Shown piece by piece: positions 505-64,000 of a DNA stretch of 64,000 nt; position 1 is the first letter of the stretch; each line of letters opens with the position of its first letter. The stretch is from Eumeta japonica. Its lineage: Eukaryota; Arthropoda; Insecta; Lepidoptera; Psychidae. The notes under the pieces were generated by a model, which saw nothing but the letters and a program-made list of their open reading frames with translations, did not search any database and was not told where the DNA came from. Location of the stretch: contig BGZK01000745.1 of NCBI GenBank assembly GCA_005406025.1, forward strand, positions 1-64,000. The letters run 5' to 3'. The translations under genes were made by a program, and so were the position numbers.

Positions 505-605
505 CAGAATTCGGAGTCGTATACCACCACTGAGATATAATAAGAGTCGGAACTCCATAGAAAAAATAATCGTTGATAGTTACAATTCATTACCAACCTT
601 ACACA
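505..605. repeat. Left arm of a long imperfect inverted repeat
   Basis: ATAAGAGTCGGAACTC at 540-555 is an exact reverse complement of 11061-11076. Similarity continues on both sides: CACTGAG-ATATA outward, and CATAGAAAAAATAAT then TACCAACCTT inward. It covers about 100 bp with small gaps. The arms enclose the THAP/transposase pseudogene. They may be the terminal inverted repeats of the element, or two opposite copies of a small dispersed element. I see no clear target-site duplication. Confidence 0.55.
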
Positions 606-2479
606 CCAAATAAGTGTCACCAACATTGAAATGTTATTCTGTCATTTTGACATTAGAGATGTCCTCTAATCAAAATTCGCTTCATATAGATATCGATAAA
701 ATTTTGGCGGTAAATTTGAATCTTTAGCATAGCTAAATAGATTTATATTTTAGTAATAGGTAAAAAAAACATAAATTAGAATCAATACTTTATTATTAAA
801 AAAATATGCATAGTCAGTGGTTATAATAACAAATACACAAATAAGAATTACTTGATTAAATATTTCTAAAACACACCGATTTCAGTTTGTAGTGAAAACA
901 CACAATTTAGTAGAACATTTGTAAAACTTTCTTTTAATTTGTTAAATTGTACAGTAATAAAAGTTAGGAAACGGTCTCCTAGTTTTGTAATCAATTCAAG
1001 CAATATTTCTGATCACCACTTCTGGAAATTGTAGTTGTTTATCCCAGAAATACTTTAACTAATTACATTTATTCAAAACTTATTGCATTCAATTTTGGCT
1101 CTTATACAATATTAAAACTTGACAACACCACAAAAGCTTCTACATAGAAATAGGATACAGAGTTACATTAAAATTGAGATTTAATTGTGTATGTTATTAT
1201 ACAAAAACGAATTGCTAATGTAGACTGATGCAGCCTATTTATAAGGTGGAACATCTTACAAAAACGTGGCGTCTTACTACCACGATATATCCAGACATCG
1301 CTTTTCACATTATAATTTTTTAAATAGTTTAATTAACACTATATTTAACAATTTATATCGCACAATATTCAGCGGAGCTGCCGGGATATATTCGCCTGCC
1401 AAAACCACCTTGAAAAGACAGCCGACCTCCCGATTTATAAACTAAACATACTACATTTTGTAAAATATCAGTAGAATTGTCCATAGGCTTGAAGGGCTGC
1501 AGAATAATGTTTGCTACCATTCAAATTCAGTGGCTCAGTCAACAACGCCCACCAACTCGCTTTCTTCTTATTTTCTCAGCATCTGAAAGTACAAGTTATA
1601 TGAAAACCAATTCTGATTACATTTTGGCTATCATTCCTACTTCAGTGAATGTCGGTCGCCGAATTACATGGATACACCATCGTATTACTCTAAGAGATCA
1701 ATTACTATCCCCATAGACCAAATTTCATCTTTCTTACATCACCTTTAAAAACATTTCAAGTGTAATAGTAAATTTCCTCTTGTTTTCCATTTTATTATAT
1801 CTATGACTTCAGATGCTGTACGAGGCGCCACCAACACGTCTCCCGAATTCATCATGTAACATAAAACATTTTAAGATTACAGGATATAGTTGACAAAATT
1901 TCACATACTTAGAATAACAGCATGATATATATTAATTACTAAGGGACATAACATAAAGACCATAAACCTATATAATTTTCTTTTACACTTTCCTAATCTA
2001 TAAGAATAAATTACATTAAAATTAAATCAAATTTGCATATAAATTGATTCAACAAAAATTGTTATTTTATAATCAAAACTATTCAAGTCAGATGTATGAA
2101 ATTGCATGAAAATAGGTTTTGCAATTAGTAAAACCATAACATTTCAAAATATTTTACCTTCATTAATCTAAAATTTTGCCTGGAAACTATTCTTAGACTT
2201 TTCTAACCAGATGTAAGTATAAACACTACTGAAATACTGTTAAATTATTATCAGGTTTAAGAGATAGGATGGAAAATTTAGTTATTGGAAATTATTCAGT
2301 TAGTTATAGCCCTGATTTACTCTTTGGCACTGTCGTCTTATTAATAAACGAGCTAAGCGATCTAATACAATTTTAGGCATGTCTGTGAGTTTCACAATTC
2401 ATCCACCTTATGTCACATTTACTAAAAAATAGTGTTACAGTCAATTGGCAAATGTTTGTTACATGTAACTGATTAATTA
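606..2479. other. AT-rich stretch downstream of the transposase relic, no gene seen
   Basis: A 79-codon plus-strand frame (1477-1716) has no recognisable motif and is not supported. A segment at 1386-1411 (ATATTCGCCTGCCAAAACCA) resembles 11188-11207 in direct orientation, which hints that both flanks of the element carry related sequence. Confidence 0.3.
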
Positions 2480-4355
2480 CTTCTTTTCAAAATATCTAAA
2501 GCATCCTGTATCAATCCACATAACTTTATAGATGGATATGTCAATGCATGTTGATCTTTCCACCATTCTCTTAAAGTTATGTAAGAATAAATAGGATTGC
2601 TTGGATTATTTCTTTGGAGCCTGTTCACATACAACACAATTCAGGCTTTTGACCACCGTAGAAGCTATATAACCACTAATGTACACTAACGGTTGTTTAT
2701 CAATTTCAGTGAAATCAGTTTCAACAATATCAAATTCTTCTGGTATAGTTAAAACTGGAACCTCTGAATGTACGTCAGTAATTTGAACTGTTTCAGATTC
2801 AGTAGTTTTTGATAATACATGTTGATCTAAATCAGGTTCAGTAGGATTCTCTTCAAATAGCATATCATGAAAGTTGGTTAATAGTTTTGATAATCTTTTG
2901 GCAATTAGCGCTTCTACTATGTGGGGCAGTTAACCCGGATATTATAGTACTTTTAGGGCAGCTATAAAATTGGTGCAAGTAGGATTTCTATTTGTCGGAT
3001 TGTACTGTAATTATACCGAAAATATTTTCTAATGCATCCTGATTGAACTGCCTTAAATTCATGTTTAAAACCATACTTCTTTCGAAGTAAGTACCAAATG
3101 TCTCGTAATGTATCCATTGAGAGTACATAACCACGAAGACATTTTACTTTTGTACTTGGTTTTCCATCAGCATCTATGAATTTGGTATTTAATAATTTTT
3201 TTAAATCTGTCCATACCTTCAAATGTTTGGTTTTAATGGACACATTTTGTCTTAGACCTATTTTAATATCTTCAGCACAGGAAGGACCATTTGTGAAATC
3301 AAACAACTTATTAAGTTCTTCGATAATCAAAGCAGTGCCATCATAGCAGTACTATTCTCTTGGTAATGACGTGACTCTGTCATTAATTTTAAGACAGTAG
3401 ATTACTGCAATTTTACTTTCATTTTAGCCCTTTCCTTTAGGCTTAACATGTACAGGGCTAATTTTGGACAGATACAAAGATTTTTATTTTTTTCTCTACT
3501 TCTATTAAATGGGACCAATATCCTACGATTGTTAAAGTGTATGTTACCATTAAGAAGAAAATTGTTTCTTATAGATTTAAATAAATGAGGTACATCATAC
3601 ATAATAAACAATTTTTGCCTATCCACCACAAAATAATTTTGTCACGTATAGAAGTTGAATGTGTTAACTTCTTTAAAATATTAATTCCCCATATTCGTTG
3701 ATCCCTGATCACAAACAGTGACAATTATTTTAAAACCTGTTGAGTTTATGGCCCTAATTATCTCAATAATTATACTAGCTAATTTTGAGACGATACTGAG
3801 TCTTTACGAAATAAAATGCAACTGGTTGCTTAAATTTAACACAAATACCCTGTAACATAAATACTAATGCATGATTTGCTAATTGATCTGTCCCTCTCAT
3901 ACCATAATCCTCATAACCTTCAATTTTATCAGAGGGCATATCATATGTAAGATGACTACTTATTGACATTTCATCAAATACTAATGCACAAAGTCTATCT
4001 TGAATAGATCTGCTTGAAGATATTGATTTTAAATACTCTAATATTTTATAATTAATGCCGGGTGCTATAGGGACTTTCTGTAACAAATTCCTAAAGTTTT
4101 AATGCTAGGCAAAGGGATTATGTTTTGCAGTATCTATATGTTTTAGGAGATCGTTTTAAAATACAAATAGCAGCTGCTTTTAGATTTGTTGACCAACGTC
4201 TTCCAGTAGGTTTTCTTTTCTGGTTTTGAAATGCCGACAAGACGAGTTCTTTTAAAATTGGGGATTCAATGTTCTCAATTAATTTGGCACTTTTTTGAGA
4301 CTAGCCAATGTATATTTTGTTTTCAGTTGTTGAATTAATTTCCTTGGCGACATAT
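2480..4355 (-). pseudogene. P-element-like transposase catalytic exon, frame-broken
   Basis: The exon begins after a TTTCAG acceptor with DMSPRKLIQQLKTKYTLASL. It then runs through the P/THAP9 transposase core in several shifted frames. Recognisable open blocks are 3775-4086 (FDEMSI, VFMLQG, KQPVAFYF), 3402-3629 (YDVPHLFKSIRNNF), 2962-3330 (KVKCLRGYVLSMDTLRDIWY and QDALENIFGI) and 2606-2863 (acidic stretch, then CVVCEQ). The end reads KLCGLIQDALDILKRSN and stops at about 2480. Each block is separated from the next by a frameshift or stop, so no functional enzyme can be made from this copy. The blocks are collinear with the family, so this is one decayed gene and not separate genes. Confidence 0.8.
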
Positions 4356-5072
4356 CTGAAACAAAACAAAATTTTTGGAGGTAGTTCTCAGGAGTCTGAA
4401 AATTATAATTAGAAACTATTAAAATTATTTGAATAAAATAGCTAAGCTACTGAAATCTTGTTATAATTAATATTGTTATGATGGAAACGAAAGAGCTTTA
4501 TTTTTAATTTATGGAGAACACAACTATACAAATGATGTGTAAATAATAATATTCAATACCAGTTTTAATATTTTTTAATAATATGATTTGCTACTCTTTC
4601 CATATGCTTCAATAATTAAACGTATCTTAATAATTATCTCCATGGAGCACTCTACAATCATAGCTTTTTAATAATGCAGTTTTAGAACATTACAGACTAC
4701 ATGGATGATGTGATAAGATTTTCTTTTTCTTCTTTTACTTTTGTAATAATCACCACAAAAATTCAAGGATTCCAAAATATAAATATAACAGCAATATAAA
4801 TATTGGGGTCAGCTATGTTTAATAAAATCTAAATAATCATATAAGGTGGTTGGTTGGAATAGAGCTACAACAACTACCATTAAAATGACAAAATTAGAAC
4901 CAACAGCCTAACACTTTTTAGAACATGAGGGTCAATTTAATTTGAATTAGGCTTTAAATAAATGCATTTCCAGGATAGAAATCAAAGCACATTATCTGTT
5001 AATGAGATTAAGGACTAGCACTGTTTAGTAATGGTTGTCATATATAAACACAGTTCGATTTTAGGTGCTCAC

Positions 5073-5144
5073 CTGTGGCATATGATTCGCTTGGAATAGG
5101 TTGTCTTTCTGGACTTGTGCCTGCCATTTCCTCTTGTGCGAAAA
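5073..5144 (-). CDS. Tandem linker exon, copy 5 (72 nt), last before the transposase exon
   Basis: This exon reads FAQEEMAGTSPERQPIPSES then YAT, in phase 1-1, with a TTCTAG acceptor and a GTGAGC donor. Its last base joins AT of the transposase exon at 4355 to give Asp, so the product would continue as DMSPRKLIQQLK. That join in frame supports the chain from linker exons to transposase. Confidence 0.68.
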
Positions 5145-5515
5145 CTAGAAACATTAATTATTTTCCTTATTAAATGTTGTATTCACAAAAAAACAGTAGA
5201 GCTTAAAGTTGACAATAAAAATGTTAGAGTTAGATAAGTACAGTAAAATCTAAACAATCACATAAGATGGCTGGATGGTATAGAGTTGTAATAACTACCA
5301 TTAAGATGACAATAATCAAGACCAACAGCTTAACATTCCTTCTACAACATGAGGGTCTGTTTCCTTGAATTAGGTTTTAAATAAATGTATTCTCAGGATG
5401 GAAATCAAATTACACTATATGGTAATGAAGAAAAGGACTACCTCTGTTACTTAACTTACCATTATTTAGTAATGGTTAACAATTATAAATATATTTTTAT
5501 TTTTTATATGCTCAC

Positions 5516-5587
5516 CTGTGGTATACGATTCACTCAGGGTAGGTTGTCTCTCCTCACTTGTGCCTGGCATTTCCTCTTGTATGGAAA
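5516..5587 (-). CDS. Tandem linker exon, copy 4 (72 nt, 24 residues)
   Basis: This exon reads SIQEEMPGTSEERQPTLSES then YTT, in phase 1-1 with a TTCTAG acceptor and a GTGAGC donor. The other two frames of this copy hit stops, while the conserved frame is open in all five copies. That identifies the coding frame. Confidence 0.68.
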
Positions 5588-5940
5588 CTAGAAACATTAA
5601 TTATTTACCTTACTGCATCTTGTAATATTCACCAAAAAAAACAGTAAGAGCTTAAAATTGACAATAAAATTATATGAGTCAGGTATATGCAGTAAAATCT
5701 AAACAATCATATAAGACGGTTAGTTGGTATAGAGCTGTAACAAATATCTTTAAAATGGGAACAATCAAGAGAAGCGGTTTAACTTGTCTTCTAGAACATG
5801 AGGGTCTATTTAATTTGAATTAAGTTTTCTAAATAAATGAATTCCTAGAGTAGAAATCAAATCACATTGATAATAAGAACTAACCACTGCTAATAATGGT
5901 TGACATTAATAAACACAGAGTTATATTTTTAGGTACTAAC

Positions 5941-6012
5941 CTGTGGCATATGCTTTGATTGGAATAGGGTATCTCTCCTGAATTGTGCCTGGCATTTCCT
6001 CTTGTACGAAAA
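5941..6012 (-). CDS. Tandem linker exon, copy 3 (72 nt, diverged)
   Basis: This exon has phase 1-1 boundaries with a TTCTAG acceptor and a GTTAGT donor. It reads FVQEEMPGTIQERYPIPIKA then YAT. It is the most diverged of the five copies but remains open in the conserved frame and has the same length. It lies within the 4824-6350 tandem block. Confidence 0.65.
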
Positions 6013-6350
6013 CTAGAAACATTAATTGTTTTCTTATTAAATCTTGTAATATTCACCAAAAAAACAATAAAAGCTTAAAGTTGACAATAAAAGTGTTGGA
6101 GTTAGATATGTACCATAAAATCTGAACAATCATATAATTGGTTGGTATAGAGCTATAACAACTACCATTAAGATGACAAAATCAGAATTGATGGCTTAAC
6201 ATGTTTTATAGATCATGGGGGTCAGTTTAATTTGAATTAGGCTTTAAATAAATGCATTCTCATGGTAGAAATCGAACCACATTTTCCGATAATGAAAATA
6301 AAGACTACCACTCATACCTACCCTACCACTTGTTAGTGATGGTTAACAAT

Positions 6351-8373
6351 TGTGCAGATTAAAATTAAATTTGGCCAACTCCACCAAACCAAAAAAAAAG
6401 TTAAATATTGATTTTGCAAGCTAATAAAAAATCTTTAAAGTAGCAATATTCAAAATCAGCCTACTCCATCGTTTCATGAAAAAAAACAGGCACAAATTTA
6501 AACATATGTTTCAAAACTACTTATCCCCATATATTTGTCTTAATCAAGACATTAATAGACAAATCCACTTCAGCCAATCAGAACTCTCGATTCTGTTATC
6601 ATGGCTGATATTTAGTATTAGTACTGTGAGGTTAATGTTTCGTTGCTCCACCATACAAATCCAAAGAATTGAATATTGATTCGAGAGGATTGACAGATAT
6701 CGAACACCTAACCAAGTGCTAATTTTACTTTTTATAATTATCTTAGTCCGCTAATCATTAAAATAATAATTTCTACGTATATTTCATGCTAACTAGGCAC
6801 ATCCTCAGAAAATTGCAGGCAATCACATGCACCAGGGTGTAAGAGTGTTAAAATAACTGACACAACCTCGTTAAGTGAACCGCTGTCAAGCAATGTCAGC
6901 ATTGGATAGAATGGATATTGGATAGAAAGGAGAGGCAAAGCATTAGATAGAGATTTATAGTGGAGAGGCAGATTCGAGGGTCAGCGGTGGGTTGCATGCT
7001 GCATGTTGTAGGCAAGCGCCTATTATGGATTTCCAATTAACGCCTCACACAATACAATGTTTATAAGGAGTTTTAAATCGCCATCGCATAACTAGTAGGA
7101 TGGCTGAAGAACACTGTGATGGTGACAGAAAAAGGTTTTACATACTTCAAAATGAGAAGCTGTGGAGAAATTCATCAAAACGATTAAACCTATTGAGAGC
7201 CATTACTGCCGAGTTAAAAAAGTATGTATATATTTTCATCCTAAACTTTCTATTACTTAATTATACCTAATGTATAAAGATCAATGCAAACTAGAATATG
7301 AAGTTAAACTGAGTTTTTCAGACTGATATTTAACACTAGGTTTAATATTAGTTTCGGAAGTCAGAAAAAATGTCTGCTCCATGTGTCTTCAATTATGAGA
7401 AAGGTCTTAAAGTAGAAACATTCACTTCTGCAAAACGCATTTTGTTGATACAATTACACATGTATACATTAAGAGCTAAAGAATTTTTCAACTACTACAG
7501 GAAGAGACTCCCAATTTGCTTGTAATATAATTTGATTGTTTAAAAAATGCACCACTCCCCAAATTTACCAAACAATTAGTATATTATGTTGACAAATCTA
7601 CTTGTATAATTTTTCATCATCACAGGTTCCTCCCATAATAAATTATCGAAGAACAATGTAAAATCATTATATGTGAACATAAGATCAGTCAAGAAAAGGA
7701 TCAAACAAAATATATCTAAGCCGTATTCTATTGCCTAAATCAGATTAATACAGAAGGTATTGTAAATAATTGGAAGACAAACTGTAAAGAAATGTCGCAA
7801 TTAACTCAGTATTCATTTCCATTTAAGTAAATGCAAAAGGTTTCTTTTGAAAAATGCAGTTGACCAAACATCGAACCAAATTCAAATGAGAACTTTTTGA
7901 TGTTTGTTTTATGTTTTCATTTTCAGGTTTTCATTTTCAGTTTTATGTTGCAATGAGTATTAATAGAGGCATAATAATTAGTAATTTCATTTAATTACCT
8001 ATACAATAAAATAATACTTAATTTTATTTATAAATATGACCCTGTGCTATTCAAGCTCCTTACTCAAATCAAAAGTACCTAATCCCAACAGTATTTAATT
8101 CTAAAGTAGTTAAATCCCGTGTATAAATCAAAATATGCTACCTCAAATATTTTATCAATTTTGTGTTCTTTCCATTACATTTTTATCCAAAAGAAAGTTT
8201 TAATGTTTTCTAAAAGATATGATGAAACTTTCTTCAATCCAATGTTGTATAGCAATAGCTTATAATAAATCCTACAATCTTTTTACTCCCTTATTTGAAA
8301 AGTAATTTTGGTGGAGATGGCATAGTTTGATTTTAATCCACACAATAAATACGTTTCCATTTTTCATGTGATT
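6351..8373. other. Spacer between the two exon arrays, no supported gene
   Basis: In the gene model this is intron. A plus-strand frame from 7100 (MAEEHCDGDRKRFYILQNEK) is open for about 50 codons but has no recognisable domain, and I do not call it. The rest is AT-rich. Confidence 0.3.
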
Positions 8374-8375
8374 AC

Positions 8376-8447
8376 CTGTAGTATACGACTCGCTGAGGGT
8401 AGGTTGTCTTTCCTGACTTGTGCTTGGTATTTCCTCTTGTATGGAAA
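8376..8447 (-). CDS. Tandem linker exon, copy 2 (72 nt, 24 residues)
   Basis: This exon is almost identical to 8794-8865: SIQEEIPSTSQERQPTLSES then YTT. It has the same phase 1-1 boundaries, a TTCTAG acceptor and a GTAATC donor. Intron sequence upstream of it (to about 8790) matches the intron of the neighbouring copy nearly base for base, which shows a recent duplication of the whole exon-intron block. Confidence 0.7.
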
Positions 8448-8793
8448 CTAGAAACAATATTTTCACACATAAACTTAATGTTAAAACGATAAAATTGAAA
8501 GGTAGTTATACTTTATAGAAAATGTCATGAATATGATTCAATAAACATGCTCACACCAATGTTTGTTACTTTTAGTGAATTTAAAAATGAAACTTTACAA
8601 TTATGGTGCCAAAAATACCAATTCATTTTTATCACTCCGGAACTGGGATCGACTCAGACATATTAAAAGAAATAAATGACAAAAATATTCAATTATTTAC
8701 CATCTATTAATTAATAGATATGTGTGAGATTTCAGAGCTAATACTATGGAAACTATGAAGGATGTTAGAAAGATGAAAATGTTTATTATTTAC

Positions 8794-8865
8794 CTGTAGT
8801 ATACGACTGGCTGAGGGTAGGTTGTCTTTCCTGACTTGTGCTTGGTATTTCCTCTTGTATGGAAA
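8794..8865 (-). CDS. Tandem linker exon, copy 1 (72 nt, 24 residues)
   Basis: This exon is flanked by a TTCTAG acceptor and a GTAAAT donor. It starts with two bases of a split codon and ends with one base (phase 1 on both sides), so including or skipping it keeps the frame. It reads SIQEEIPSTSQERQPTLSQS then YTT, and the junction codon GTT gives Val. It differs from copy 2 by a Glu-to-Gln change. It lies within a 418-bp duplicated block with 8376-8447. Function is unknown; the unit is hydrophilic and probably an unstructured linker. Confidence 0.7.
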
Positions 8866-9218
8866 CTAGAAACAATATTTTGACACATAAACTTAATGTT
8901 AAAACGATAAAATTGAAAAGTAGTTATACTTTATAGAAAATGTCATGAATATGATTAAATAAACATGCTCACACCAATGTTTGTTACTTTTAGTGAATTT
9001 AAAATGAATCTTTACAATTAAGGTGCCAAAATACCAATTCATTTTATCACTCTGGAACTGGGATCGACTCAGACATATTAAAAGAAATAAATGACAAAAA
9101 TATTCAATTATTTACCATCTATTAATCAATAGATATGTGTGAGATTTCAGAGCTAATACTATGGAAACTATGAAGGATGTTAGAAAGATGAAAATGTTTA
9201 TTATATAACAATAATTAC

Positions 9219-9443
9219 CATTTCTAGAAAATAAATGCTGAGGAAAATCGAGCAGCTGCACATCAGTAAGAGGAGGTCTAGATAAATTTATTTTGGAACT
9301 GCATGTTTCTTAAGTCTGTTTCCTTTTTATTAAAATCTTCCTTTGAAAAATGGTTGCCACATACAAAACGTATTTTATTAAGCTTCTCAATTGGTAAGTA
9401 CACTAATTCTTCATTGCCAACAACCTTTAGCCACTGTTTACAG
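9219..9443 (-). pseudogene. THAP domain exon 2, with a one-base frameshift
   Basis: After a TTTCAG acceptor the exon reads CKQWLKVVGNEELVYLPIEK and then RFVCGNHFSKEDF, which supplies the CxxH half of the C2CH zinc finger. The frame then meets TAG just after QNKFI. The next frame over continues as LSRPPLTDVQLLDFPQHLFS and ends in the phase that the 72-nt exons require. A single-base difference around 9283-9290 therefore separates two sensible halves. It is either a true inactivating mutation or a base-calling error. The donor is GTAATT. Confidence 0.7.
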
Positions 9444-10434
9444 CTGAAAGTATAATAAAATTGAATGAGGTAATTTATGTTTTAAGGTTAATTAACTAGT
9501 TCATTGATTTAATTACAGTGGAGACTCAATTATCTAGACATCAATTATAATTTAATAATTATATGGATTGCCACCTGAAAAAACTTTGTAGTCTAATTTG
9601 TATATGCACCGATATGTACAACTGGCACTATCTGTCCGGCCCTGTGCAAGCACTGCCCAGTATTTTATTGTTGTTTTAATTAGGCCAGCACTCACTAAGC
9701 GAGTTACTAAACTTTACACCGCTGTATCGTGTCATGTCTGTACTTAAACATATCAAAGCGTAAGGGAATGGTATTCTAGCTTAAAGATTAAATAAATATT
9801 ATTACTTCATTAAAAATGAGACACCAATCATAAGTTATCTGGTATAGGTGATATAGATTTGGTATAGTTAGGTATAAATGATTTCATAATAAGTGATATT
9901 GTAGTATGGATGTACCCTACATTGGGTATTGAATATCCAGAATCGTGATTTAAAATCAGCAGCAGGAAAATTATATTTATTTGATCAATTCTTCAAATTA
10001 TCGGTTCATGAATTTTATATATACTAAATATCACACATTAAATATTTCATATTCAGATATTTATTACTATTAAGGCTTTTGTATGAGAAGCCTTGATCAA
10101 AATCATCTGCAATTTGGTTATCCAAATGCCTTACGCTAACAATTAAACCAGTTAATTTAATCTCCACTGTACATATACATATATATCATACAATTCAATT
10201 ATTATTTTGTGTATCAACTATTTAGATATATATAATTAGTGTATTAGATACTGTTCAAAAATGACAATAAGGCCTATTTCACAAATGGATAGTAGTTACC
10301 TCAAATATCATATTGTTTCTCGAAGCTCAAGTCCTTATTACCATGCCTTAATAAGCAAATTCTTTAGGTAGATATTAAAGAGTCCAAGACGAAAAACACA
10401 TAGATAGATAGGATTGCATAATGTAGGTACTTAC

Positions 10435-10547
10435 ATGTTTTCATCTAACGGAAATCTTGCGAAAAATAATGGTTTTCCGGTGATAGTGACCTCTCTTAAA
10501 TGGCATATTTCACAAATTCGATGAGATCGATGCGGTTTGTTGATCAT
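10435..10547 (-). CDS. THAP domain exon 1 (N-terminal half of the zinc finger)
   Basis: The exon starts at an ATG (10547-10545) and reads MINKPHRSHRICEICHLREV followed by LFFARFPLDEN. The CxxC pair and the RFP block are the start of a C2CH THAP zinc finger, which in P elements contacts DNA. It ends with AT before a consensus GTAAGT donor at 10434-10429. With the C that opens the next exon it makes Ile, so the reading joins as DENICKQWLK. This join places the invariant Trp of the THAP fold directly after the splice. No upstream in-frame Met was examined as an alternative. Confidence 0.75.
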
Positions 10548-11009
10548 TTTTAGGCTTCTAATATAAATAACGAGTGCTATAAATCTTTAAACACCAAATG
10601 GAAAAGTAAGTGCTCAACTCAATATTTACGCTCGTAAATTATGATGAATGATAAATCTCTAAAGCATAAAATTGATAAAGCAGCGAGATATTCCACCTAA
10701 TGCAACGCAACACGAAAATAAACGACAAAACGGTTTAAAAATATGAAGATGTCGATATTAGGTCTAAATAGATCGATAAAATTTAATTGGGTTACCATTA
10801 TAGACTTTTTGCACTTAAAAAAATGAAAACAATTTCAGTAATAATTACAGCAATAAATGTGACTGATTTTAATAAATACATAATAAAATATAAAACACAC
10901 TTTTATAATTATGAAATATACAGTATAAAATATATACTATTAGTAAAATATAATTATACCATCCCTGAAAATGGTTTTTTTAAATTGAGCAACACTATTT
11001 GTAATTTTG

Positions 11010-11130
11010 TCAATGTTGGTACTATATTCGAAGCGATCCATAGAAATAATTTTTGTATGAGAGTTCCGACTCTTATTTATATGCTCAGTGATACCTACGA
11101 CAAAATGGCAAATCTGACATTGTCGGATGA
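11010..11130. repeat. Right arm of the long imperfect inverted repeat
   Basis: This arm is the reverse complement partner of 505-605, with a perfect 16-bp core at 11061-11076. Part of a 128-codon plus-strand open frame overlaps it, but that frame has no recognisable domain and AT-rich composition. The repeat explains the sequence better than a gene does. Confidence 0.55.
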
Positions 11131-15897: not shown

Positions 15898-15969
15898 TGA
15901 CCCCGACGTGATTTGAACACGCAACCTTCTGATCTGGAGTCAGACGCGCTACCGTTGCGCCACGGAGTC
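15898..15969 (-). tRNA. tRNA-Trp: tRNA-Trp (anticodon CCA)
   Basis: The minus strand reads GACTCCGTGGCGCAACGGTA to a 3' end of CGTCGGGGTCA. GACTCCG pairs with CGGGGTC in the acceptor stem, with one G-U pair. The anticodon loop is CTCCAGA, with CCA at 15937-15935, between stems CTGA and TCAG. The T-loop carries GTTCAAATC, which also serves as the internal B box. It is 72 nt, has no intron, and is followed by a run of T for polymerase III termination. It is isolated, with no other tRNA genes nearby. All expected arms are intact, so it is likely functional. Confidence 0.96.
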
Positions 15970-57229: not shown

Positions 57230-57560
57230 TAATTTGCGTCTGTCTGTCTGTATGTCCTTTTATAACTTAAGAACGACTCATCCGATCGTGACGAAAATTG
57301 GCACACAGTAAGAAAATACGATTGCACAAATAATAGGCTACTGTGTCTGTCTGTTTCTTAATTTATAAATCTTAAGAGTGATTAAATCGATCATGATGAA
57401 AATTTGTATACAGTAAGAGAAAAATATAGGCTACTATCTGTCTGTCTGTATGTTAATTTATAACTTAAGAACGGTGTGACCGCTATTGATGGAAATTGAT
57501 GTACAGTCAGAATCTGTGATTGTAAAAATGATAAGCTTCACGTTATTTTCTAACATCGCA
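57230..57560 (+). repeat. Three diverged ~100-bp units with CTGTCTGTCTG
   Basis: Units near 57240, 57345 and 57435 each carry CTGTCTGTCTGTATGT, then TTATAACTTAAGAACG, a GACCGAT-like block, GAAAATTGGTACACAG and AGAAAA. A fourth unit is at about 59800-59930. Noncoding. Confidence 0.6.
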
Positions 57561-62300: not shown

Positions 62301-63669
62301 ATTGTCATGTAAACGATTGCAAATCAATCTAATCGTCCTTATGTTAATGAATGCATCTATTTGCCCCTTTCCGTAAGCGATCGTAAAAGCCTCATGACTA
62401 CCGATCGATGGCAAAATTATTTTTGCGTTAAAGCGTAATAAATATCCATCCACACATCGTTACAAATTTTCATGTTTTGTATGTGTTAGTAGGATTTTTG
62501 TATGTTTAATTTAACGATTTCTTTATTTCGTTTCAGACGGGATACCGTTAGGTAGTCGTTGTAATTTCATATACTGTTTTTAGGTAGATATTTATGTGCA
62601 TAAAATTTTAACTTAAAGAATGTTAAACTTTCACGAATCCTAATTGATTCAAGCTTAACATTATTAACTGGTGGAGAGTGGTGTTGGCCGGGTAGCTAAT
62701 AGCGTCGCTTGTTACGTAACAGTTATATCGAACTTTGACATAATAACTACATGCGGTTTCACACTAAAGAGACAGGGAATATATAATAATTTTAGTCAAC
62801 GCTACAGCTTCACATTACTTCACGTATTCGAACACACATACATTACTTTTACGAACAATTCAATTTGCAGACTTCAGACAATCTACTATTGCCCACTCTC
62901 TGTACCAAATTTGTTACTAAGTGAGGTGAAATGGCGGTTTTAATTAACATAATTTATAATAACTCAAAAACATCTAACTATTATTAATGTGTAATAATAC
63001 ATAAAGTACATATATAACACAAATACAAAGTGTAATTGTTATAAACAAATTTTCGGTAAATTTGTAAATAAAATAACAAATGAGTAGAGCCCATGATTTC
63101 ATTGGCACATTATCACAAATTTAAAACTTTAATCTACCGAATAAATTGCACTAATTTCACCTTAGATATCGATTAGAGTCGCGATTGGTAATATATTACA
63201 ATATAAAAAATGTATATGACGCCGGTCAAATGTATGTCAAGTCAGGCGTAATGTATGATTACGTAATAGTCAAGTGATATGCCATGTTTAATATGTTCTT
63301 TTTTACCATGTGTTATTATGTACCTAATACCACTATGAAAATTTTAAAATCTTAAAAAATCGGAAAGTAGAAAATCAATTTTTCATCAAATATTTAACTA
63401 TTTTGAGCACATTCCGAGTAGCAAGAAGTATCAAGAACGGCCTGTAGGATCGCTCGCCTTTCGAATTTTTAAGCTCGAAAATAATCAACTATATTTTGGT
63501 AACTCGTGAAGCTGAAAAGTACATCGATAAATAAAACAGCAGGAACTTTTAGGGATGGATTGCAGGGTCAACCGTTATCTCGATGTTTTATTTCTGATTG
63601 AGCTGTGTGGTTTTAAAGTTTCCATGTTGGCCCACTGCTGGTTGTGGACTGTCACCATCTGTCGACGAC

Positions 63670-64000
63670 GATGCACTAATACCACCTGTTGGCACCGATG
63701 TAGTAATACCGCTTGTTGAAACCGATACGGTAATACCGCCTGTTTACATCGATGCGATGATACCGCCTGTTGACACCGATGTGATAATACTGCCTGTTGA
63801 GATCGATGCAATGATAGCGTCTGTTTATACCGATACGGTAATACCCCTATTTACACCGATGCGGAAATATTGTCTTTGTCACCGATACGGTAATACCGCC
63901 TGTTGACACCGATATAGTAATACCGCTTGTTGACACCGAAGCGATAATACCGCCTGTTAACCCCAACGCGGTGATACCTCCTGTCGACATCGATGCGGTA
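63670..64000 (+). repeat. 27-bp minisatellite, at least 12 units, continues past the window
   Basis: The unit GATGCGGTAATACCGCCTGT TGACACC recurs with substitutions from 63670 to the window end. Two units have 26 bases. In one plus-strand frame it reads as a nine-residue repeat (DxxIPPVxT) from 63598 until the 26-base units break it near 63840. I regard it as noncoding. Confidence 0.88.

Follow-up and report, generated by a model that had tools for sequence, protein, structure and literature searches.

Full-length P elements of Drosophila melanogaster are 2.9 kb long (PMC7776569), and full-length P genes of Anopheles consist of three putative exons, with an extra intron in one family (PMC1562414). 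In both Drosophila melanogaster and Anopheles gambiae, P elements combine a THAP DNA-binding domain and a P-type RNase H with inverted termini and 8-bp target-site duplications (PMC7776569; PMC1562414). Zebrafish P-like elements, which have short subterminal repeats and 8-bp target duplications (PMC7776569), and vertebrate THAP9 share the THAP and P-type homology, and no repeated linker exon is mentioned for them in the excerpts of PMC7776569 available; this and all other statements cited here follow excerpts of the respective papers. Here we describe a P-superfamily element of the bagworm Eumeta variegata whose gene structure is unusual. The complete element lies on the minus strand at positions 528..11090 of the 64,000-nt stretch of DNA analyzed as a whole (hereafter the window; positions 1 to 64,000 of contig BGZK01000745.1, GenBank assembly GCA_005406025.1, listed under Eumeta japonica). 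Like the P elements of Drosophila and Anopheles, it displays the main features tested for the superfamily, namely THAP, P-type RNase H, inverted termini and 8-bp duplications, and it is assigned to the P superfamily. Unlike them, it is ~10.6 kb long and carries 4-7 extra exons of equal length.

The first-pass annotation of this DNA had proposed five tandem 72-nt exons with phase 1-1 and AG/GT borders inside a THAP/P-transposase gene, and we found all five on the minus strand. In the order of transcription they are unit E (exon 3, 8794..8865, VSIQEEIPSTSQERQPTLSQSYTT), unit D (exon 4, 8376..8447, VSIQEEIPSTSQERQPTLSESYTT), unit C (exon 5, 5941..6012, VFVQEEMPGTIQERYPIPIKAYAT), unit B (exon 6, 5516..5587, VSIQEEMPGTSEERQPTLSESYTT) and unit A (exon 7, 5073..5144, VFAQEEMAGTSPERQPIPSESYAT), each 72 nt long. 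All five have TTTCTAG upstream, CAG/GT at the end and phase 1-1, and their peptides follow the pattern V[SF]xQEExxxTxxERxPxxxxxY[AT]T. A profile search of the whole window yielded no sixth unit. The run lies between the THAP exons and the transposase core, and this placement agrees with the proposed kind of gene. Exon 1 (10435..10547, minus strand) contains the start codon and the first half of the THAP domain and ends at a GT donor, while exon 2 (9219..9443, minus strand), whose frame is broken in the window copy, encodes the second half; the last stretch of open frame in exon 2 ends at 9219, in phase 1. Together the two exons match the Pfam THAP model (PF05485, E 4.3e-8, 34.2 bits versus a cutoff of 23.9). 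The core (2303..4355, minus strand, far end approximate) starts in phase 1 and comprises a pre-catalytic region, an RNase H-like catalytic part and a C-terminal part; one open piece of it matches the P-type RNase H model TNP-like_RNaseH_N (PF21787, E 8.8e-26). On the window gene the Pfam P-element helix-turn-helix model stays below its cutoff (14.2 versus 23 bits), and insect homologues such as the Cydia protein P0002 carry the whole domain set. Since exon 2 ends and the core starts in phase 1, any number of units could be spliced without a frame shift.

The window element belongs to a DNA transposon family that is young and was recently mobile. The copy set consisted of 20 other Eumeta copies, out of 23 sought, together with the window copy (21 copies); as copies were located with exon A as bait, the perfect conservation of exon A in all 21 is a biased result. 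All 20 other copies align to the window element at 93-98%, L026 and L038 in pieces. The 3' terminus is reached by 16 of these 20, the stretches of the remaining four ending before it, and a 3' flank of 10 nt or more is available for 14 copies (window included), 13 of these flanks being distinct. In a test that drew on 12 short 5' ends, the 8-bp target-site duplication was perfect in seven of the nine copies for which 8 nt or more of each flank are available. The duplications of L023 and of the window copy agree only with a small difference; in the latter the 5' flank reads GTAGGTAT, and the 3' flank agrees with it only if one gap is allowed. L039, whose 3' flank comprises just 4 nt, showed no match to its 5' flank. 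Substitutions between copies amounted to 0.1-0.9% in the 13 pairs compared. The distinct flanks, the 8-bp duplications and the low substitution levels therefore indicate that the family is young.

The number of units differs among these copies. The array is complete up to exon 2 in 18 of the 21, and L024 (at least six units), L033 and L034 were excluded from the counts as incomplete. Four units are present in one copy (L032), five in ten (the window copy, L021, L022, L023, L027, L035, L036, L037, L039 and L040), six in four (L026, L028, L030 and L031) and seven in three (L025, L029 and L038). The earlier proposal that units can be added without cost to the frame is thus matched by gain or loss of units at the DNA level. 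Extra units sit between exon 2 and unit D. Across the 21 copies, a profile search at E up to 1e-3 recovered 109 unit exons; the length is exactly 72 nt in 85, and AG/GT borders are present in 105. The predicted array peptide ranges from 96 to 168 residues for 4-7 units, and the spacer of the enzyme may accordingly differ in length from copy to copy.

The differences in unit number could be artefacts of a nanopore assembly, the true number being fixed. The Eumeta genome is a polished draft assembled with Canu from nanopore reads (PMC6488591), and homopolymer indels in it are frequent. However, the read N50 of 15 kb (PMC6488591) exceeds every array found. Moreover, four pairs of copies share a 5' flank, namely the window copy and L021 (143/147 nt), L022 and L036 (109/119), L023 and L027 (107/128), and L028 and L030 (181/192), and each pair is probably one insertion present on two contigs. 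Unit numbers agree within every pair (5/5, 5/5, 5/5 and 6/6, respectively), which argues against assembly slippage. When the pairs are merged, 14 insertions remain, with four, five, six and seven units in one, seven, three and three of them, respectively, the 5' flanks having been read for part of the copies. Unit number also follows the two subfamilies that were distinguished by eye at 29 informative sites in 20 copies: the nine copies of subfamily I have 4-5 units, and the eleven of subfamily II have 5-7 units or incomplete arrays. We regard an assembly origin of the differences as very improbable.

Tandem duplication of symmetric exons with a flanking intron, head to tail and with the phase kept, is a known change in host genes. 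In contrast to such genes, the Eumeta array is mobile, so that every insertion can bear its own number of exons. Units E and D plus their introns are ~97% alike over 409-421 nt, the two 5'-most introns of the run are 97.7% alike, and the introns around C, B and A (array 1) are 77-82% alike. Exon and intron were thus copied together, as the first-pass annotation had supposed, and this joint duplication argues that the array did not arise by chance. Pairs of array-1 introns differ by 7-15 gaps per ~280-340 nt, whereas the unit exons are all of one length. The first ~350 nt of the last intron (4356..5072, minus strand) represent a further copy of the array-1 intron (77-82% to the others) without an exon. 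Among the exons, E and D are identical at 71/72 positions, D and B at 64/72, and C and A at 61/72; no other pairs among D, C, B and A are as close as the latter two, which suggests an older duplication of a two-unit block. Homology of the E-D intron to the array-1 introns was rejected, the similarity in the stricter alignment, the one compared with shuffled sequences, not exceeding theirs.

Two arrays of different age had also been proposed, and this view holds for the introns but not for the units, which form one run split by an insert. The insert occupies ~2 kb of the D-to-C intron (6349..8346, unstranded), has inverted ends of 40 nt (82.5%) and is carried by the mobile family. Wherever units D and C were both located (19 copies, window included), the distance between them is 2426-2476 nt, and the middle of the stretch occurs at 25 places in the genome, all on contigs that also match the element family; a late insertion private to the window was rejected on the latter ground. 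Because the D-to-C distance is alike among copies and the insert travels with the family, the five exons are consecutive.

An older form of the array is found on contig C2774 (27500-37601; L053 and L063), the source of protein P0021. Its THAP exons differ from those of the young family by ~20% at the protein level and are followed by six units, of which four have 72 nt with AG/GT, one has 54 nt with AG/GT and one lacks the acceptor AG. Between the four intact units, just 8-11 of 24 residues are shared. Beyond the last unit lies a 41-nt match to the 3' subterminal part of the element, and no P core was found within the 10 kb read. Judged by a ratio of nonsynonymous to synonymous rates (dN/dS) of 0.13 between C2774 and the young family, THAP exon 2 is under strong constraint; it is stop-free to its end at 13 places in the genome, C2774 included. 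In most units, length and frame have been retained across this old divergence while the sequence is loose, as expected for a disordered spacer. Further THAP exon-2-like matches, with 64-74% identity to P0021, lie on contigs C936, C1652 and C2352, which are not among the insert-bearing contigs, and these are possibly older relatives in the same genome.

A ZAD/C2H2 zinc-finger gene follows the C2774 units at a distance of ~1.2 kb, and the P0021 model joins them in phase. The THAP exons, array and zinc-finger part are a candidate for a host-transposon fusion gene, or else a merger made by gene prediction. A protein of Maniola hyperantus (P0121, 584 aa) has a THAP domain, a linker with the 12-residue repeat EELQYQPSTSMT, and then, by eye, a ZAD-like part and C2H2 fingers; this is the layout of P0021, although the ZAD part differs by eye.

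Taken together, we consider it likely that the units are a variable-number array encoded by exons and spliced into the transposase message. Gene models suggest that all five units enter the mRNA. The first-pass annotation had held that a lack of splicing at all five borders, together with the lack of any related gene with the unit, would speak against its proposal; the second of these does not apply, since the unit recurs in the other copies, and five annotated Eumeta proteins include it. The gene set was built by BRAKER2 with cDNA mapping (PMC6488591). Model P0001 joins exon 2 and exactly these five units in frame, and model P0015 likewise has five units in frame.

Several observations weigh against the predicted spliced array. 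The four annotated models of this family, P0001, P0012, P0015 and P0029, all leave out the core, and in two some units are read in a different frame. Core matches fall in two or more frames or contain stops in every one of the 21 copies, at differing positions; as the introns of the core are unmapped, these frame changes need not all be breaks. In the window core the open frame is broken several times, and the matches to Cydia P0002 fall in several frames. In 12 of 13 copy pairs there are 2.5 to 7.8 times as many small indels as substitutions (0.8 times in L035-L029). Likewise, most unit pairs show no clear purifying selection, and units B and C have an indel rate of 0.083 per nt versus 0.08-0.12 in the introns (20 aligned copies), so that no constraint on the units is visible there. 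A lower indel rate in the units, as a sign of selection or of cDNA polishing, was not observed. With regard to the frame breaks, the intron indel rate per run per copy climbs from 0.006 to 0.65 as homopolymers grow from 3 to 6 or more, and many of the breaks may therefore be sequence errors. They may reflect the nanopore assembly or true decay, and given the indel pattern, taking them as proof of a dead pseudogene is unjustified.

The results on selection bear on the possibility that an intronic tandem repeat happened to include a small symmetric exon and gave rise to the array as a neutral by-product, the number and sequence of the units being irrelevant to the transposase. Such an array would grow and shrink freely because frame-neutral exons are invisible to selection. 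The indel rate of B and C among the young copies is consistent with this explanation, as is the dN/dS between units, which ranges from 0.14 to above 2 overall and from ~0.3 to above 1 in most pairs; with ~16 synonymous sites per unit, single values mean little. Unit number also varies inside one haplotype defined by the 29 sites (L040, five units; L031 and L028, six; L029, seven). However, four of the six C2774 units have kept 72 nt and both splice sites despite the low residue identity among them, unit D differs from unit B by five synonymous and only three replacement changes (dN/dS 0.14), and the array-1 introns have accumulated gaps around exons of uniform length. We therefore hold a purely neutral array to be possible but somewhat improbable.

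If the units are spliced in, they would form a disordered repeat spacer whose length could change at no cost to the frame, and unit length and general make-up would count more than the exact sequence. With such a spacer, the THAP domain could reach a subterminal site with the core positioned on the terminus. A spacer role of the array is plausible, although we stop a little short of calling it probable. Unit number may rise and fall through misaligned repair or exchange involving the near-identical ~415-nt exon and intron repeats, perhaps during break repair after P excision. Repair following P excision is well known and forms the basis for the proposed misaligned repair synthesis. In the P transposase, the THAP domain and most of the dimerisation region are unresolved and presumably flexible, and the mobility of this region has been offered as a rationale for the pairing of differently spaced ends (PMC7776569). 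If the mobility of the THAP arm aids the pairing of ends whose spacing differs, lengthening the spacer would extend the reach of the arm. In the Eumeta element, a candidate short subterminal inverted repeat is the 11-nt sequence ACCAACATTGA, which lies 71 nt from one terminus and 92 nt from the opposite one, and shuffled sequences yield a mean of 1.9 chance 11-mers.

We also compared the linkers of other proteins. With the unit itself as query, matches were obtained in Eumeta only; one Maniola THAP protein also surfaced, without the unit. The comparison covered the 24 other proteins with THAP and RNase H among the best 120 of 137 passing matches (7987 candidates scored), and all counts that follow refer to these matches. 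Strong tandem linker repeats are present in eight of the 24, from six genera (z above 20, next 8.4): Cydia P0002 (2 x 53 aa), Diabrotica P0043, P0054 and P0059, Photinus P0034, Euphydryas P0078, Brassicogethes P0084 and Bombyx mandarina P0014. As three of the 24 proteins are Diabrotica relatives, the linker counts are not independent. As in Eumeta, the repeats lie between THAP and core; compared as proteins, they differ from the Eumeta unit in sequence and length, with periods of 17 to 65 residues. Homology of the unit to the linkers of other insects was rejected beyond the tetrapeptide PSTS (best shuffle fraction 0.017 in 18 tests).

The same linkers bear on another explanation of the repeats, as docking sites. 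In this view, a host factor or kinase would bind the P-S/G-T-S motif followed by an acidic-aromatic tail in each unit, and the number of copies would determine avidity rather than distance. P[SG]TS occurs in 11 of the 24 linkers (0.3 expected from shuffles), with 27 occurrences in 4800 linker residues versus one in 13954 residues elsewhere in the same proteins. [DE]HxY, which we take to be the HCF-1-binding motif of THAP proteins, occurs in ten of the 24 linkers (0.26 expected) and in Cydia and Diabrotica lies inside the repeated unit. The Eumeta units, in contrast, lack [DE]HxY, the proline of the motif is present in only six of nine distinct units, and past PSTS the unit is not convincingly like the other linkers. 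Sites for ATM-type kinases (SQ/TQ) were rejected as the repeated signal, SQ being present in three of the nine units. We consider docking sites an unlikely explanation.

The termini of the element read CACTGAG...CTCAGTG, and P termini of Drosophila likewise begin with CA. The 5' terminal inverted repeat (11047..11090, minus strand) matches the inverted 3' repeat (528..568, minus strand) at 88.6% over 44 nt, and the same ends are seen in other element copies. The annotated proteins of L024 and L025 (contigs C3270 and C3262) are P0015 and P0029; by eye, both share an upstream Helitron/Pif1-like part, and the P copy at these loci may lie in or beside a Helitron. Elsewhere in the window, the only Rfam match of the scan was a tRNA-Trp gene (anticodon cca) at 15898-15969 on the minus strand. 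A 93-nt repeat is present twice at 57328-57511 (75% matches), and a 27-nt tandem repeat of 12.4 copies at 63669-64000 reaches the window end.

In agreement with the first-pass annotation, open-access literature searches, which cannot prove novelty, found no report of an exon array in a P-like element. Few cut-and-paste systems of animals have been studied as thoroughly as P elements, yet the only explanation for how THAP sites of differing spacing are paired is the unresolved flexible region (PMC7776569). One suggestion, which we put forward tentatively and regard as rather unlikely, is that the Eumeta element carries its own length-adjustable spacer, a self-expanding exon array that would reset the reach between THAP and catalytic core at rounds of transposition or repair. 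If this is true, the repeats found in the linkers of further insect P-like transposases would have arisen convergently to meet the same need, and the THAP and array exons that precede a ZAD zinc-finger gene would demonstrate that a host can acquire the cassette. Since the elements are nearly identical apart from their 4-7 linker units, the function of linker length is directly testable. The Eumeta element presents tandem exon duplication, better known in host genes, as a fast-changing trait of a transposon.

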